Positions 157 to 63,498 of a stretch of DNA of 64,000 bases are shown here, piece after piece (within the stretch, counting starts at the first letter, position 1; every line of letters begins with the position of its first letter). The stretch is from Brachyhypopomus gauderio. Lineage: Eukaryota > Chordata > Actinopteri > Gymnotiformes > Hypopomidae. The notes below the pieces were generated by a model. The model saw only the letters and a program-made list of their open reading frames with translations. It made no database searches and had not been told where the DNA came from. The stretch spans positions 4,677,656-4,741,655 of the forward strand of contig NC_135220.1 of the NCBI RefSeq assembly GCF_052324685.1, written 5' to 3'. Made by a program: the position numbers and the translations under genes.

Positions 157-3100
157 ATTGAACTGGAGCGGTCATATTTGGTCAACTTCTGGCTGAAGGG
201 CAGTGGTGTGGATGAAGACCCTGTTGATCTCCTGAGCATTGACAATAAGAACGGCCAGGTCTTTGTGCACAAGAAGATAGACTTCGAGGCCTATCAGGTT
301 CTCAGGGTATGTTCATAGACAAAACCAGGAGGAGAAATGGAATAATTACATATATAATTATAATCATAGGTAACATACTCTAGATGTATGCAGTCTTACT
401 ACTGAAATTATATGGTTAAAGTGAAAATTTGAATTGTTATTTAACAGACAGTATTAATATGATTTTCTCATGACAACTTTGCATTATACACAGTCTAATG
501 CAATAAATATGCATTTCTTTCATTTATATTGGAATGTCATATTGGTCTTTTGTCAAAATCTTTATCCTGCATAGGTCATGTACCAGGGTAGACTAGAACT
601 TCACCTAACTACAACTTTAATGTCTAGAATTGTAATATCAATTAATTCCTATTTTGTATCAATTACAGCTAACATTTGAAGCTAGGAATGTTTCCAATAA
701 AGAAGTGGACACAAGACTTGGTGTTGAGATCAAGATTCTGGACGTAAATGATAACCCCCCAATCTTTCAACAATCATTCTACGAAGTTTATATTGATGAG
801 TCTGCAGTTCAGGGTAATCCACGCTAGATACTGCGTCTAACAAATCTTACCAAGTTAATCCTGCAATACTCTATTAATGTCTACGTCTTCATGCGTGTAT
901 ATTGATGTCTGTATGTTGATGTTTGTATATTGATATCTGTGTCTTAATGTCTGTATCTCAACAGGTGAAAAGGTGGTAACAGTGATGGCAATAGATAATG
1001 ATGACTCATCGACTCAAAATGGCACCTTCACACTCAGAATCCTCTCTTACACTCCAAAAACTGATAACATTGAGTTCTTCATAGAGCAGGCAGAAAACAC
1101 CCTCACAGGGTCCATATATTTCAGGGGCTGTCTGGAATATGAGGTAAACATGTTTCACTGTGCAGTGGCTTCAGTCCTCATCTGTCATTCTCCACATCAG
1201 AAAACATTCTTCAGTTTTTTTTTTAATCTTTTCAGAAAGCACAGAAATATACCATCCTGGTTGAAGCCAAAGATCATGGAAACAAAATTCAGTTGTCCAG
1301 CACGGCTACAGTGTTTGTCAACATTATTGACAAAAACAACCACATCCCGGAAATCACTGGTCAAAAGGTAAATACTTATAAACAGGTTATGCTGAAACAA
1401 ACAGAGCCATATACTCCTACAACCACATGATCATTATTTTCAGTAGTGGTTATAATTTTTCTGGTTTTGTACTATGAACAGTCTAATGCTACAACTTTAT
1501 TGTAGACCTGCACAGTAAATGCATCGCTGCGTGTGCTACAGACCTGTGTTGCACTGACCTCATAGCCCTGCTTTACTGTGTGAACACCTGACTGCAGTGT
1601 GTGGGTCACATTTCAGGGTTCTGGAAAGATAAAGGAGGATTTGAGTGGAGTTGAAGTTCTGCGCTTGCAAGTGACAGACGAGGACAGTCATGGCTCTGAG
1701 GCCTGGAGGGCCAAGTTCTCCATTCAAGGAGATAAAGAGAATTATTTTCAAATTTCAACAGATCCCACAACTAATGAAGGAATATTAACAGTTATAAAGG
1801 TATTTTAAACTTCTTTCAACATTACACTTCTTTAACTAGCTGGCAAAGAAATATATTTATTAATGTTTTTGTAAATGCAAAAATATACAATTTCACACAT
1901 ATTCACATGTTTTCGGTGTGTGAGATATATGAGGCTTGTTCAGAACTGAACAAGTTTGTTTTTATTTTGTTGTTTTATGCTTCATAAAGAAAATGGATTT
2001 TGAGCGGCAAACGTCACGAAACCTGTCAGTCAGTGTGGATAACGAGGTCCCCTACTTTTCCTGTGAGATCAAAGCACGTACCAAACAGAGACTTTGGGAC
2101 GTAAAAACTGTTAAAGAAGGCTCCGGTGTGAGTGTGCCCAAACTCTATCCTATCACCATTGGTGTGGTAGACGTCAATGACCCTCCAGAGTTTGAACCAC
2201 GTGTTAAAGAAGTGATGATCATGGAAAATTTAAAATCAGGCACCTACTTGTACACCCTCCAGGCAATAGACCCTGACAAAATCTTTGCCAGCAAGTTTCA
2301 GTAAGTTCCTGCATCACACCCCAGACTCAGGGCCAGGTGGACATGGGGGGATATATCTCTGGTGGCAGTTTCTATTTGTCTGAAAGTCTGACATGAGCAA
2401 CTCTTCTGTGATGGCTCTAACTTATCACATAACGTGGGCCCAGGACTGCCTACCAATCACACTCTGCCTACTGAGCTGAATGATTTAAACTGATGGAATT
2501 TATCAGACACGCAGCTGTCAACACCAAGCTGTCAATCACAGGACACACAGATTGAGTGCTGATAGGTTCTGACCCACCTGTTTTAAAAAAAGGCAAATTT
2601 GGCCTTGGAGCTCACCTGGTAGAACAGGTGGGGCAAGGTTCTTCTAGCAACACCAAGATCATGGGGTTCCTCCCAGGGAGATGATGTATGTAAAGCTATA
2701 CATATTAAGACAAATATAAAGATATAAAGAAATAAAAATATAAAGCTCAATGTATAAAGATCAGTAACTGCTGAGGGGGGGGTTCATCGGTGTATGATGA
2801 CATGGTGTCTGTGTAAAAATTGCATTTGTGTAAAAATTGCATTTATTGAACAGCACAAAACAACATAGTACACTAACAAAAACATACACTGACATTTTTT
2901 GTGTAATAGTGATAGACTAAGTAAAAAAAAAAGAAAAAAAAGAAAAGGCTCCTCTACGTTGGCACCTTTATTTGCCACAGACACATAACTGCCTGCCTTA
3001 CACATCAAGCACTCTGCCTCATACGTGCCGTAAACGTACACTTTCGTTTCGGCTTTGCCGTAGAACCGGCGGACACACGTGCTTTCGCTTGTAAACACTT

Positions 3101-43843: not shown

Positions 43844-46800
43844 GAATGGTCCTCGTGCGTAGTGAAGGTGGTCAGCTGCTGATGATCCATCAGCAGACAC
43901 TGGCCCAGATGCAAGCTCAGTCCCAGGGCACCATGGTAACGAGGCCCACCGCACCTACCAGCACCCCACCTGTTCACATTACCTCGGTATGAGTATGACG
44001 GAGCACCACCCTCTCTCTCTCTTTCTCTCTCCCTCCTCCCTCTCTCTCTCTCCCACCCCCCATTCTGTGTTGTTGTCTCATGCTGATCTCACCCTCCAGG
44101 CCCCTGGGAGCCCGATCATTACACGGCAGGTGACTCCCACCACGATTACCAAACAGGGCACTCCTGTCTCCGCGGGCAGCCCGACCACTGCTGCGCTCCA
44201 GAGGCCTCCACTACTACAGGTCAGACACCACCCGCTGTCCCCTGCAGCAGGTCAGACACCACCCGCTGTCCCCTGCAGCAGGTCAGACACCACCCGCTGT
44301 TGTCCCCTGCAGCAGGTCAGACACCACCCGCTGTCCCCTGCAGCAGGTCAGACACCACCCGTTGTCCCCTGCAGCAGGTCAGACACCACCCGTTGTCCCC
44401 TGCAGCAGGTCAGACACCACCCACTGTCCCCTGCAGCAGGTCAGACACCACCCGCTGTCCCCTGCAGCAGGTCAGACACCACCCGTTGTCCCCTGCAGCA
44501 GGTCAGACACCACCCACTGTCCCCTGCAGCAGGTCAGACACCACCCGCTGTCCCCTGCCGCAGGTCAGACACCCACCCACTGTCCCCTGCAGCAGGTCAG
44601 ACACCACCCGTTGTCCCCTGCAGCAGGTCAGACACCACCCACTGTCCCCTGCAGCAGGTCAGACACCACCCGTTGTCCCCTGCAGCAGGTCAGACACCAC
44701 CCACTGTCCCCTGCAGCAGGTCAGACACCACCCGCTGTCCCCTGCAGCAGGTCAGACACCACCCGCTGTCCCCTGCAGCAGGTCAGACACCACCCACTGT
44801 CCCCTGCCGCAGGTCAGACACCACCCGTTGTCCCCTGCAGCAGGTCAGACACCACCCGTTGTCCCCTGCAGCAGGTCAGACACCACCCGCTGTCCCCTGC
44901 AGCAGGTCAGACACCCACCCGCTGTCCCCTGCAGCAGGTCAGACACCCACCCACTGTCCCCTGCAGCAGGTCAGACACCACCCGCTGTCCCCTGCAGCAG
45001 GTCAGACACCACCCGCTGTCCCCTGCAGCAGGTCAGACACCCACCCACTGTCCCCTGCCGCAGGTCAGACACCACCCACTGTCCCCTGCAGCAGGTCAGA
45101 CACCACCCGCTGTCCCCTGCAGCAGGTCAGACACCACCCACTGTCCCCTGCCGCAGGTCAGACACCACCCGCTGTCCCCTGCAGCAGGTCAGACACCACC
45201 CGCTGTCCCCTGCAGCAGGTCAGACACCACCCACTGTCCCCTGCCGCAGGTCAGACACCACCCGCTGTCCCCTGCAGCAGGTCAGACACCACCCACTGTC
45301 CCCTGCCGCAGGTCAGACACCACCCACTGTCCCCTGCAGCAGGTCAGACACCACCCACTGTCCCCTGCCGCAGGTCAGACACCACCCACTGTCCCCTGCA
45401 GCAGGTCAGACACCACCCGCTGTCCCCTGCAGCAGGTCAGACACCACCCGCTGTCCCCTGCAGCAGGTCAGACACCACCCACTGTCCCCTGCAGCAGGTC
45501 AGACACCACCCGCTGTCCCCTGCTCCCCAGCTGGGCTCTCTGCTCAGCTTCAGGTCTTAACTGCAGAAATGTTTGTTTCAGTGTAGTAAATGTACCAGTC
45601 AGTTAATGAGCTGTTTCATGGCTGTGATTGAGAACCATTAGAGTAGTCACCTAAGGTCATTAAGGTCATATAACAATCGAACTGTGATTCTGACTTTCTT
45701 CTTCAACCTCGCACCACACGTGTGACACATGGCTCACTCTTATTCACACGCAGAACACCATTGTGCTGGGTGGCACAGCCACGCCCACCGTTGGCACGCC
45801 ACCCCCGGGACATGTCGGAACGGCCGGTGCCACGCCCACTCCTGTGTCTGCGGTGAGAGGGGTTTCTACCGCTGGGGTTTTCCTGCTGCTCAGAGAACAG
45901 ACGCTGGGTTTTGTATCTTCAGGAGAAGAGCATCATCTAACTGACCATGTGTTCTTTCACTGTGAGCTTGAACACATTTGGTGCTTTGGACATTTAAGTT
46001 GGATTTTTTAAGATTTTACACAGCATGTTCATCTCGCAGAACAAGCATTGGTGAGCAATTGGGGATCTCTACAGAGTTGTAGATGGTCTCCATGGGGTGG
46101 TGGATCTTCAGGAACAGGGTTGTAGATGGTCTCTGCAGAGAGGTCGATCTCTACTAGACTGTGCTGTCTGTAGCAGATAACAGCATGAGACATTTGTGAT
46201 TGGCCGCCTTTTTAAAAATAGATCTAAACCTGTTTATAGTTCAAGTTCACGATGAAGAGTTTGAAAGAAAAGATGTGAAACTCAGCAAGCACTTGATCAT
46301 CTGAGATGGTGAGTGTGGGCTGCTGTGGTCTCCTCACTCCTGTCTTCATCCTCGCTCCTCTTCACAGGAAACACTGGAAAACGTAAAGAAGTGTAAGAAC
46401 TTCCTGTCCACGTTGATAAAGTTGGCGTCGAGCAGCAAGCAGTCTTCAGAGACGGCGGCGAATGTGAAGGAACTGGTCAAGAATCTCCTGGTACGTGTTT
46501 CCATAGCAACCCGGTGTCCATCACACCTCAAAGTGGAGTTTCAAAGACTACGTGTAGTTGTAGATATTTAGATTTGTGTGTGGGTGTCTGTGGGTGTATG
46601 GGTGGGTGGTGTGTGTGTGTGGGTGGTGTGTGTGTGGGTGGGAGCGTGGGTGGTGGGTGGGTGGGAGCGTGGGTGGTGGGTGGGTGGGTGTGTGTGTATG
46701 GGTGGGTGGGTGGTGTGTGTGGGTTGGTGGGTGGTGTGTGTGTATGGGTGGGTGGGTGGTGTGTGTGAGTGTTTTTTTTTTTTTTTTTTACTTCTGGTTT

Positions 46801-51136: not shown

Positions 51137-54100
51137 CACCCAGTCTTCTGGGGGGCAAACCCCAAATTAAATTTAATGGTCCTAACAACAAGTCATTACT
51201 CAGAAAATTAAGCAGAACTAAGCCCCGCCCCCTGAGACCTGTGTTGCCATTAGCTCATCACTGCTGCAGTGAACTGGTGAGGACCGCCCCCTCACTCAGG
51301 CCTTCTAGGACACCCAGATAAACCATGTGACCTGTGCTCACACACCTGTCACCTGTGCTCCTTATATTCACACACCTGTCACCTGTGCTCCTTATATTCA
51401 CACACCTGTCACCTGTGCTCCTTATATTCACACACCTGTCACCTGTGCTCCTTATATTCACACACCTGTCACCTGTGCTCCTTATATTCACACACCTGTC
51501 ACCTGTGCTCCTTATATTCACACACCTGTCACCTGTGCTCCTTATATTCACACACCTGTCACCTGTGCTCCTTATATTCACACACCTGTCACCTGTGCTC
51601 CTTATATTCACACACCTGTCACCTGTGCTCCTTATATTCACACACCTGTCACCTGTGCGCCTTATATTCACACACCTGTCACCTGTGCGCCTTATATTTA
51701 CACACCTGTCACCTGTGCTCCTTATATTCACACACCTGTCACCTGTGCTCCTTATATTCACACACCTGTCACCTGTGCTCCTTATATTCACACACCTGTC
51801 ACCTGTGCTCCTTATATTCACACACCTGTCACCTGTGCTCCTTATATTTACACACCTGTCACCTGTGCTCCTTATATTCACACACCTGTCACCTGTGCTC
51901 CTTATATTCACACACCTGTCACCTGTGCTCCTTATATTCACACACCTGTCACACATTTCGTCTTTTAAATAAAGCCAAAAGTACTTACTGTGAGAACTTG
52001 CTATGTGTGTGTGTGTGTGCGTGTGTGTGCAGGGACGATGACGACATTAATGACGTGGCGTCCATGGCGGGCGTGAACCTGTCTGAAGAGAGCGATCGTA
52101 TCCTGGCCACCGGCTCGGAGCTGGTGGGAGCAGTGACCCGCTCCTGCAAGGACGAGGTCTTCCTCCACACGGGCCCACTGCACTGCAGGGTTCTGGAGAT
52201 AGGTGAGGTCTTCCTCCACACGGGCCCACTGCACTGCAGGGTTCTGGAGATAGGTGAGGTCTTCCTCCACACAGGCCCACTGCACTGCAGGGTTCTGGAG
52301 ATAGGTGAGGTCTTCCTCCACACGGGCCCACTGCACTGCAGGGTTCTGGAGATAGGTGAGGTCTTCCTCCACACGGGCCCACTGCACTGCAGGGTTCTGG
52401 AGATAGGTGAGGTCTTCCTCCACACGGGCCCACTACACTGCAGGGTTCTGGAGATAGGTGAGGTCTTCCTCCACACGGACCCACTGCACTGCAGGGTTCT
52501 GGAGATAGGTGAGGTCTTCCTCCACACGGGCCCACTGCACTGCAGGGTTCTGGAGATAGGTGAGGTCTTCCTCCACACGGGCCCACTACACTGCAGGGTT
52601 CTGGAGATAGGTGAGGTCTTCCTCCACACGGGCCCACTACACTGCAGGGTTCTGGAGATAGGTGAGGTCTTCCTCCACACGGACCCACTACAGTGACAGA
52701 CGGTCCCCCTACTGGACAGAGACAGATGCTGCCCTCTGTTTTGCTTGTTTCAGGACATTGTTGTCTCTGTGCCTGTTCACTGTTGTTGAGGAGGTCGACC
52801 ACTGTAGTCATTGGTCATCAGTGTGAACAGTAGTGAACTGCGGATGCAGCCCTGAGGTGCTTCCTGTGTTTAGTGTGTTCAGGGAGGCCAAGTTCCAGGT
52901 GCAGAGTGAGGTGTTCTCTATTCTGTTGCTGATTGAGTGATTGTGTTGAATGCTGAACTGACCAGTGGCAGATGAATATGCCAGCAGAGGGGTTTTCGTT
53001 TGTAGGACCGTGTAATCTCAAAGACCTCCAGGGCAGCGTGGCCTCCAGGGCAGCGTGGCCTCCAGGGCAGCGTGACCTCCAGGGCAGCGTGACCTCCAGG
53101 GCAGCGTGGCCTCCAGGGCAGCGTGACCTCCAGGGCAGCGTGGCCTCCAGGGCAGCGTGGCCTCCAGGGCAGCGTGGCCTCCAGGGCTGCGTGACCTCCA
53201 GGGCGTTTAGAGAGGCTGATCTTCATGATTGGTTTGACTGCTTCTGCTCAAAAGTCATTTTGTTGGTCCAGGATGCTGGTCGTTTTGAAGCCCTTATGAA
53301 GCCTGTCTCAGGGAGATGTGGAAGATGTCTGTTAGGGACTGTATACGGAGATTACAGGTATACGGTGAATACTGGTATACGGTGATTACAGGTATACTAT
53401 ATTACAGTTCAACGGTGGATATTACTGTTGCATTATTATTGGTATTTGGTATCCATGGCTATTTTCAATTCACTGCATGGACCTGCTGTGGATGGTGAAA
53501 GATGGTATCAGTGTGTGTAGAAAGAAAAGGTAAAGGCTTGTTCTCTCTGAGGTTTGTCTGGGACACTACTGCCCTGCTCAGAAGGCGACTGGCTCCTCTC
53601 CTCTCCAGCGTTTATCATGGTGTTAAGACACTTCCAAAACAGAGCTTACTTCAGAGACTATGCTAAAGGCTCATGTTAATATTTATATGTACCTTTATTT
53701 ATGTATTTATTTGTTTCCGCCCCTCATCACAAGTACATCTGCTCACCTTGATCTTTCTGCCCCACAGGTAAAAGATTTGGCATTTCAGAACTTGGTGCAG
53801 ATGTCATCAGCCTGGTGTCTCACGCAACTCAGCACAGACTAAAGGATCTTCTAGGAAAGGTGACACAGGTGGCCCATCAGAAGAACATCTCCTTCAAGGT
53901 ACATCATCAGGATCACCCAGGATCTGGATCACCGGGTCGAGAGATGCATACAGAACCAGAAAGCCCCTCAAAACGTTTTACCCAAACACAGTTGCAATAA
54001 AATACTGGTGCAGTAAAGTAGGGCAGTGTGTGGAGGTGAAAGACCTTTAGGGTTCCTAATGCGATCGCTAGATCAGTCAACTGACATGTGCGATTAGCTG

Positions 54101-58711: not shown

Positions 58712-59057
58712 TGCGGCCCCCTTGCACCACCCCACTTCTACGCATCTGATTGGTCAGCTCTGGGTGGTTGTTTATCTTTTGGATCATATACCTGTACTCT
58801 CCACCGTCTTACAGGTGCATCACCCACGTCAGGGGGTCTATTTCCCTGTTCAGATCCTACACCTGAATGGATGCTACCCACAGAAATGCATGTATAGTGC
58901 ACCTTATGTAACCAATACATCCTGTATATGCTGGCACATCACACCACGCATGGTCAAGGGTTTAATCCACACCTACTGTCATACAGATAAACGTGGAAGT
59001 CGCTCTGGAGAAGAATGCTGAGAATGGAAATGTAGGTGCATTTTACAGTTGTACAAT

Positions 59058-60215
59058 TACAGTGGGTGGCCCACAGTCACGAACCCCTTAATTACAGTGG
59101 GTGGCCCACAGTCACTAACCGCTTAATTACAGTGGGTGGCCCACAGTCACTAACCGCTTAATTACAGTGGGTGGCCCACAGTCACTAACCCCCTAATTAC
59201 AGTGGGTGGCCCACAGTCACTAACCCCCTAATTACAGTGGGTGGCCCTTAGTCACTAACCCCTTAATTACAGTGGGTGGCCCACAGTCACTAACCCCTTA
59301 ATTACAGTGGGTGGCCCACAGTCACTAACCGCTTAATTACAGTGGGTGGCCCACAGTCACTAACCGCTTAATTACAGTGGGTGGCCCACAGTCACTAACC
59401 CCCTAATTACAGTGGGTGGCCCTTAGTCACTAACCCCTTAATTACAGTGGGTGACCCACAGGCCCTAACCCCCTAATTACAGTGGGTGGCCCACAGTCAC
59501 GAACCCCTTAATTACAGTGGGTGGCCCACAGTCACTAACCGCTTAATTACAGTGGGTGGCCCACAGTCATGAACCCCTTAATTACAGTGGGTGGCCCACA
59601 GTCACGAACCGCTTAATTACAGTGGGTGGCTCACAGTCACTAACCGCTTAATTACAGTGGGTGGCCCACAGTCACTAACCCCCTAATTACAGTGGGTGGC
59701 CCTTAGTCACTAACCCCTTAATTACAGTGGGTGACCCACAGGCCCTAACCCCCTAATTACAGTGGGTGGCCCTTAGTCACTAACCCCCTAATTACAGTGG
59801 GTGGCCCACAGGCACTAACCCCCTAATTACAGTGGGTGGCCCTTAGTCACTAACCCCCTAATTACAGTGGGTGGCCCACAGGCACTAACCCCCTAATTAC
59901 AGTGGGTGGCCCACAGGCACTAACCCTCTAATTACAGTGGGTGGCCCACAGGCACTAACCCCCTAATTACAGTGGGTGGCCCACAGTCACTAACCCCCTA
60001 ATTACAGTGGGTGGCCCACAGGCACTAACCCTCTAAATTACAGTGGGTGGCCCACAGGCACTAACCCTCTAATTACAGTGGGTGGCCCACAGGCACTAAC
60101 CCTCTAATTACAGTGGGTGGCCCACAATCACTAACCCCCTAATTACAGTGGGTGGCCCACAGGCACTAACCCTCTAATTACAGTGGGTGGCCCACAGGCA
60201 CTAACCTCCTGTGGC
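59058..60215. repeat. 35-bp minisatellite, about 33 copies
   Basis: Units contain TTAATTACAGTGGGTGGCCC then ACAGTCACTAACC. Variants (CGC/CCC/CCT ends, CACAGTCAC/CTTAGTCAC/CACAGGCAC) recur in blocks, indicating higher-order duplication of several units at once. No unique spacers. Confidence 0.96.
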
Positions 60216-61909: not shown

Positions 61910-63498
61910 GGAACAGGCGAACTCCACTGGTGAGAACATGGATGAAGGAAGGGGAGGGGCCTACTACACTGGTGAGAACATGGATGAAGGAAGGGGAGGG
62001 GCCTACTCCACTGGTGAGAACATGGATGAAGGAAGGGGAGGGGCCTACTCCACTGGTGAGAACATGGATGAAGGAAGGGGAGGGGCCTACTCCACTGGTG
62101 AGAACATGGATGAAGGAAGGGGAGGGGCCTACTCCACTGGTGAGAACATGGATGAAGGAAGGGGAAGGGCCTACTCCACTGGTTAGAACATGGATGAAGG
62201 AAGGGGAGGGGCCTACTCCACTGGTTAGAACATGGATGAAGGAAGGGGAGGGGCCTACTCCACTGGTGAGAACATGGATGAAGGAAGGGGAGGGGCCTAC
62301 TACACTGGTGAGAACATAGATGAAGGAAGGGGAGGGGCCTACTACACTGGTGAGAACATAGATGAAGGAAGGGGAGGGGCCTACTCCACTGGTGAGAACA
62401 AAGATGAAGGAAGGGGAGGGGCCTACTTCGCTGGCAGCAACAAAGATGAAGGAAGGGGAGGGGCCTACTACACTGGTGAGAACATAGATGAAGGAAGGGG
62501 AGGGGCCTACTCCTCTGGCGGGAACAAAAATGAAGGAAGGGGAGGGGCCTACTCCTCTGGCAGGAACAAAAATGAAGGAAGGGGAGGGGCCTACTCCTCT
62601 GGCGGGAACAAAGATGAAGGAAGGGGAGGGGCCTACCCTGCTGGCAGGAACAAAGATGAAGGAAGGGGAGGGGCCTACTCCTCTGGCGGGAACAAGGATG
62701 AAGGAAGGGGAGGGGCCTACTCCTCTGGTGGGAACATGGATGAAGGAAGGGGAGGGGCCTACTACACTGGTGAGAACATAGATGAAGGAAGGGGAGGGGC
62801 CTACTACACTGGTGAGAACATAGATGAAGGAAGGGGAGGGGCCTACTCCACTGGTGAGAACAAAGATGAAGGAAGGGGAGGGGCCTACTCCTCTGGCGGG
62901 AACAAAGATGAAGGAAGGGGAGGGGCCTACTTCGCTGGCAGCAACAAAGATGAAGGAAGGGGAGGGGCCTACTACACTGGTGAGAACATAGATGAAGGAA
63001 GGGGAGGGGCCTACTCCTCTGGTGGGAACAAAGATGAAGGAAGGGGAGGAGCCTACTCCTCTGGCGGGAACAAAGATGAAGGAAGGGGAGGGACCTACCC
63101 TGCTGGCAGGAACAAAGATGAAGGAAGGGGAGGGGCCTACCCTGCTGGCAGGAACAAAGATGAAGGAATGGGAGGGGCCTACCCTGCTGGCAGGAACAAA
63201 GATGAAGGAAGGGGAGGAGCCTACTCCTCTGGCGGGAACAAAGATGAAGGAAGGGGAGGGGCCTACCCTGCTGGCAGGAACAAAGATGAAGGAAGGGGAG
63301 GGGCCTACTCCTCTGGTGGGAACAAAGATGAAGGAAGGGGAGGGGCCTACCCTGCTGGCAGGAACAAAGATGAAGGAAGGGGAGGGGCCTACTCCTCTGG
63401 CGGGAACAAAGATGAAGGAAGGGGAGGGGCCTACCCTGCTGGCAGGAACAAAGATGAAGGAAGGGGAGGGGCCTACTCCTCTGGTGGGAACAAAGGCT
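61910..63498. repeat. 42-bp minisatellite, about 38 copies
   Basis: Units contain GATGAAGGAAGGGGAGGGGC followed by CTAC and a variable segment (TCCACTGGTGAG, TCCTCTGGCGGG, CCTGCTGGCAGG). Because 42 is a multiple of three and units lack stops in several frames, it yields long ORFs on both strands (603 codons on minus, 424 on plus). I treat these as artefacts. Unit types alternate regularly toward the right end. Confidence 0.96.

Follow-up and report, generated by a model that had tools for sequence, protein, structure and literature searches.

Ten identical splice donors at the end of a fish TAF4 exon, probably a tolerated decoy series, and further donor-copying minisatellites in the same genome

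Which 5' splice site is used when an exon ends in ten identical ones? The question is raised by the TAF4 gene in a stretch of 64,000 nucleotides of Brachyhypopomus gauderio DNA, the whole of which was analysed and is termed the window (Table 1). A preliminary description of the locus had stated that the last 49 bases of exon 11 and the first two of the following intron recur about ten times with ATAG/GTGAGG intact (the slash marks the splice site). This holds. In the window TRF reports a period of 51 with 10.5 copies, 98% matches and 0% indels, and an exact motif search finds ATAGGTGAGG ten times on the forward strand, at 52199 + 51k. The exon ends proposed at 52202, 52253, 52304 and onwards are recovered by this search as a series of ten which runs to 52661. 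Unit 1 (52154-52204) consists of 49 exon bases plus GT. Column comparison of the ten full units shows variation in 3 of 51 columns; two of the changes are silent, the third replaces G by D and is confined to unit 7. Units 2, 4, 5, and 8 do not differ from unit 1, which represents the exon proper. Either the exon end is homogenised together with the rest of the array, or the array arose recently. Exon 12 opens with GTAAAAGATTTGG at 53768, the junction reads ...CCCCACAG/GTAAAAGATTTGG, and the joined codons are ATA-G/GT-AAA for every donor of the array. Thus, all array donors join exon 12 in one phase. The frame is open, and splicing from donor k would indeed add k-1 copies of a 17-residue peptide in frame, as had been proposed. 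The exon numbers 11 and 12 are those of the preliminary description. In the assembly, a true TAF4 exon does end in an array of ten donors. The 51-bp array was located at one place in the 796.5-Mb genome by a DNA search, which was not exhaustive and overlooked a paralogue on contig C2 described below; two weaker matches are paralogous exons.

Table 1. Features of the two TAF4 arrays (window positions) and of three survey arrays (L033, L044, L086; positions within the locus)
Feature	Position	Strand	Description	Basis
Upstream TAF4 exon	44100..44219	+	APGSPIITRQVTPTTITKQGTPVSAGSPTTAALQRPPLLQ; 120 nt, phase 0; its donor opens the second array	sequence and translation
31-bp minisatellite	44217..45523	+	42 copies of CAG/GTCAGA	TRF, donor table, column variation
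Next TAF4 exon after the 31-bp array	45754..45852	+	NTIVLGGTA..., phase 0	
TAF4 exon 11	52033..52202	+	170 nt; end = donor 1	Pfam PF05236 and PDB TAF4 matches; splice sites and phase read from sequence
51-bp minisatellite	52154..52689	+	10 full units and partial 11th; includes last 49 nt of exon 11	TRF, unit table, column variation
Ten identical donors	52199..52667	+	ATAG/GTGAGG, 51-bp spacing, exon ends 52202 ... 52661	exact motif search
Partial 11th unit	52664..52697	+	diverging; in-frame TGA at 52694-52696	
Exon 12	53768..53898	+	remaining histone fold (GKRFGISELGADVISLVSHATQHRLK...); phase fits all ten donors	tblastn with human TAF4; sequence; PDB 1H3O_A match of the joined window query
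L033, SHC-like	1641-2023	reverse	44 bp x 8.8; first 22 nt of array = exon	
L044, AFG3-like	1995-2478		32 bp x 15; first 5 nt = exon	
L086, CHD8-like	2541-2649	reverse	23 bp x 4.7; first 8 nt = exon	

The identity of the gene is clear. Exon 11 matches the Pfam family TAF4 (PF05236) with E=5.3e-17, a second TAF4 exon does so with E=4.5e-09, and both pass the cut-off. Human TAF4 chains in PDB are matched by exon 11 with E=4.8e-21 and by the joined exons with E=2.3e-95; the exons for the remaining TAF4 C-terminus were located downstream of exon 11. Judged by Pfam PF05236 together with the human TAF4 match, exon 11 and its neighbours belong to the TAF4 family. The array translation also matches DUF1409 in Pfam, with no single stretch passing, which is taken for a repeat effect. 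Reading frames near TAF4 match the Pfam families SSXT, LSM14, and MMR_HSR1; presumably these are SS18L1, LSM14B, and MTG2, which adjoin TAF4 in human as well.

The repeated peptide had been placed inside the histone-fold region, and this can be specified. 1H3O_A, the crystal chain of the human TAF4 histone fold, is aligned from its second residue at FLLQAPLQRRILEIG, which is the 17-residue unit peptide EVFLHTGPLHCRVLEIG minus two residues. By this alignment the unit corresponds to the start of the crystallised fold. From the layout of histone folds we take the TAF4 stretch in the unit to be helix 1. Whichever donor is used, one complete helix 1 would then lie beside the loop and helix 2, with the spare copies ahead of it. 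In mouse, Taf4a alleles lacking exons 11 and 12 have been described as null (PMC4820908), with an exon numbering that may differ from the one used here.

How much do an open frame and ten intact donors tell about function? When an open 51-bp stretch is duplicated the frame stays open, and when the duplication spans the junction the donor is kept. Both properties follow from duplication; they prove little and do not indicate selection. The divisibility of 51 by 3 is the sole part left to explain, and its chance is 1 in 3. Selection on the donors is unproven in either TAF4 array of the window, because so few columns vary (3 of 51 here, 3 of 31 in the second array) that the donor could be expected to escape change by chance. 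For the 31-bp array, compared over those 36 of 41 units which are exactly 31 long, the probability that 0 of 3 variable columns hit the donor is 0.34. Faster protein change at the copied exon end was considered as well and is not claimed; by eye, the last 17 residues vary among paralogues without an array, too.

We propose that a minisatellite expanded over the 5' splice site of exon 11 via tandem duplication. The slip probably occurred between short GAGG(T) matches 51 bp apart, i.e., GAC-GAGGT-CTTCC in the exon and GT-GAGG at the donor, a plausible origin as judged from one sequence. Exon end and donor would have been rebuilt in every copy. Because the introns on both sides exceed 1 kb and the donors are all equal, the spliceosome would pair the exon 11 acceptor with the first donor, and units 2-10 would leave as part of intron 11. 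The downstream donors would act as decoys and back-ups. An occasional slip to donor 2 would add 17 residues, and one to donor 3 would add 34, with the frame unharmed, and the last unit copy would still be positioned beside the remaining histone fold. We assign a probability of about three in four to this reading, a tolerated decoy series in which donor 1 is mainly used and units 2-10 are spliced out as intron.

The gene geometry and published minigene data bear on this. Introns 10 and 11, on either side of exon 11, measure 1319 and 1565 nt, and exon 11 is 170 nt long via donor 1, 629 nt via donor 10. In one study, the upstream of identical donors was used exclusively in five minigenes with flanking introns of 365 nt, and natural donor pairs of near-equal strength between long introns lean upstream (PMC9225289). 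In the same study about 60% of competing donor pairs, unfiltered for strength, lean downstream, and larger exons with weak equal donors were predominantly skipped (PMC9225289). Other elements could therefore shift the choice of donor. Upstream of exon 11 (window 51996-52032) a TG repeat takes the place of the pyrimidine tract that is usual before an acceptor, so recognition of the exon may be weak. On balance, use of donor 1 with little leakage is predicted. We infer first-donor use and, likewise, tolerance of extra helices. RNA structure was considered as a donor selector and rejected: predicted pairing renders the ten donors similarly inaccessible (unpaired probability of the 9-mer 0.001-0.026) and singles out none.

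The preliminary description had left two readings side by side, a decoy series and a length-polymorphic TAF4. In the latter, several donors would be usefully employed and TAF4 would carry 0 to 9 extra copies of helix 1, perhaps in a regulated or individual-specific manner. A period divisible by 3, an open frame, identical donors, and a unit which is a structural element of the histone fold would suit such a function, yet duplication by itself accounts for the frame and the identity of the donors, and the donor columns are spared no more than by chance. The five other donor-copying arrays found in this genome (see below) either have a frame-breaking period or meet a stop before donor 2, which argues that the first donor normally counts there. 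Exon-definition data also favour donor 1 (PMC9225289). Intron lengths, minigenes and the other arrays thus favour the decoy series and lend no support to the length polymorphism. Useful length variation is unlikely in our view; a length-variable TAF4 at low level is possible.

A known system is relevant at this point. The minisatellite of human IFI6 is located near the end of exon 2; its unit of 12 nt, which keeps the frame, is little more than a donor consensus. Turri et al., in NAR in 1995, reportedly described it as providing multiple splice donors. The TAF4 array shares with IFI6 the tandem units at an exon end with a full donor in each (ten, at 51-bp spacing) and the frame-keeping extension, here with a period of 51 and exon 12 in phase. 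The differences concern the unit, which in TAF4 is 51 bp long with 49 coding and carries a histone-fold helix whereas that of IFI6 is mostly donor consensus, and the use of multiple donors, which is reported for IFI6 and would be a possibility in TAF4. The TAF4 array belongs to the already known IFI6 kind, with a longer and mainly coding unit. Three IFI6 mRNA species are described, with two downstream repeat units serving as alternative donors (PMC4526556), and this favours length variation. Since splicing in IFI6 is not confined to a single repeat unit, it would be no surprise if TAF4 donors 2 or 3 saw some use.

Two further systems resemble the TAF4 array in part. Intron gain via tandem duplication of an exon segment containing AGGT is covered, with Rogers 1989, ATP2A1, and 24-bp arrays of fission yeast, in PMC4974935. 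There, too, AG/GT segments are copied in tandem, splicing is able to remove them, and the protein is unchanged; in TAF4 ATAG/GT is present in 10 of 10 units. The TAF4 array, in contrast, sits on the donor of an existing intron, and a new intron is not needed. In ABCA7 an intronic VNTR affects splicing (PMC5954066). It is likewise an intronic minisatellite with a splicing effect, but the accessible text does not describe it as copying a donor.

Could splicing instead proceed from the end of the series, with one or more of the donors closest to exon 12 in use? TAF4 would then constitutively carry about ten helix copies. The classical proximity rule does prefer the donor nearest the downstream acceptor if introns are short, but intron 11 would still measure 1106 nt, far above the switch at 200-250 nt given for this rule (PMC9225289). 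An exon of 629 nt would be required as well. We regard this arrangement as very improbable. Equally remote is an assembly artefact, in which the true array is shorter or longer, or the expansion false. Only one assembly is at hand and arrays are error-prone, but the units carry variants of their own, the partial 11th unit is distinct, and similar arrays are present on other contigs. The copy number in the assembly may be off.

The 51-bp array has a counterpart in the same gene. A second, 31-bp array opens exactly at the end of a TAF4 exon (44219), an exon which we take to be homologous to human TAF4. Here the frame to the next exon is kept by 13 of the 42 donors and lost with the other 29, so loose donor use would usually ruin the protein. 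A genome search for paralogues of this exon returned 4 matches, of which two are the window itself and the others have E values of 3.25 and 9.7. Ten plus 42 identical donors in one general transcription factor gene constitute a natural experiment on donor choice. Minisatellites (period 10-120, at least 5 copies) cover 25% of the TAF4 gene as against 2% of the window left of TAF4 and 4% of the first 53 loci of the survey described below.

Most of the 31-bp units have a pyrimidine-rich stretch and CTGCAG ahead of CAG/GTCAGA and resemble a combined acceptor-donor, i.e., a recursive splice site. By its sequence this unit (CTGTCCCCTGCAGCAG/GTCAGA) is a better candidate for recursive splicing than the 51-bp unit. 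For the latter, recursive splicing at AG/GT was considered and rejected because ATAG has no preceding pyrimidine tract.

Different pictures emerge when the paralogues of exon 11 are compared. Four TAF4-family exons were found, on contigs C10, C11, C9, and C2. The fourth, on C2, terminates in CTGGAGATAG/GT like exon 11 of the window. At this homologous junction five GGAGATAG/GTAC donors follow each other at spacings of 90, 56, 69, and 132; the array is built differently, and an in-frame TAA precedes donor 2. The pattern TTGGAGATAGGTACC has 4 matches in the genome, all of them in the C2 array. At the C11 and C9 paralogues a donor-copying array is absent. Donor-copying arrays, each with its own unit, are thus present at 2 of the 4 paralogous junctions found. 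All four exons appear to stop at equivalent residues, with the least certainty for C9, which suggests that the intron between exons 11 and 12 is old. CA repeats are embedded in the C2 array (L093, L094; minus strand). Further matches to TAF4-family C-terminal exons lie on small contigs (C201:142733-143471 and C427:16775-45287), one of them below the cut-off; as far as the sequences tell, they may be extra paralogue pieces or alternative haplotypes.

Are donor-copying arrays peculiar to TAF4? The best-scoring exon-centred loci of three Pfam families, selected regardless of repeats, were surveyed: the best 30 of 129 matches for SH2, 23 of 23 for AAA, and the best 30 of 91 for Helicase_C, together 83 loci with 266,259 bases (246,191 without overlaps). 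The arrays of TAF4 and its paralogue had prompted the question and were left out of the count. TRF (period 10-120, at least 4 copies) yielded 28 merged arrays, a few of them long microsatellites, and the flanks of all 28 were inspected by eye on both sides; array starts are uncertain where they lie within 11 bases of the edge of the stretch (five arrays) or are preceded by the same repeat (a sixth, L036). Three of the 28 copy the donor (L033, L044, L086). Their periods of 44, 32, and 23 are not divisible by 3, and in each case the next exon beyond the array continues in phase. The SHC-, AFG3-, and CHD8-like names are our presumptive assignments, based on the translations.

Five more survey arrays open inside the intron close to the donor and do not copy it, at +2 (L068), +3 (L048), +15 and +15 (two arrays in L045), and +17 (L015), with exon ends read by eye. 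By eye, 0 of the 28 arrays overlap a recognisable acceptor; three stop 27, 47, and 52 nt upstream of one (L023, L091, L066). Hence, 8 of 28 arrays open within a 40-nt zone around the donor, a zone chosen after the data had been seen, against 1.1 expected with an assumed 266 donors (one per kb; P about 1e-5) or 1.7 with an assumed 400 (P about 2e-4). When only donors of the query exons are counted, at least 3 are observed versus 0.35 expected (P=0.005). Donor-side against acceptor-side arrays gives 8 versus 0 (P=0.008), or 8 versus 3 when the acceptor-near arrays are included (P=0.23); donor-copying against acceptor-copying gives 3 versus 0 (P=0.25).

In all, six donor-copying arrays were found in one genome. 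TAF4 has two of them, a TAF4 paralogue has a third at its homologous junction, and the other three belong to an SHC-, an AFG3-, and a CHD8-like gene. This recurrence is the unusual part, and the survey tests it only suggestively. Among titles in the open-licence literature we found no report of recurrent donor-seeded minisatellites. Tentatively, and at somewhat less than even odds, minisatellites of this genome are seeded at 5' and not at 3' splice sites, exon-intron junctions being hot spots of tandem duplication at which donors are copied repeatedly. If this is true, introns lengthen from the 5' side, and the arrays offer natural tests of donor choice, with up to 42 identical sites available to the spliceosome. 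A milder interpretation is also compatible with the data: arrays fill introns until halted by splice signals, within a few bases of the donor on one side and some 30-50 nt short of the acceptor on the other, and they sometimes overrun the donor since additional donors do no harm under exon definition. The independent donor-copying arrays, which occur at one junction in two TAF4 paralogues and also in unrelated genes, point to splice donors as a possible source of minisatellites. They raise a question about mutation at exon-intron borders which is open to a genome-wide test.

A 57-bp intronic array ahead of a DDX6-like exon (L091, reverse strand 1198-1469) has units with a donor-like AAG/GTGGGT and an acceptor-like TTTATTTTAG. 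Downstream of TAF4 the window holds two more large minisatellites, at 59055-60210 (35 bp x33) and 61921-63495 (42 bp x37.5).
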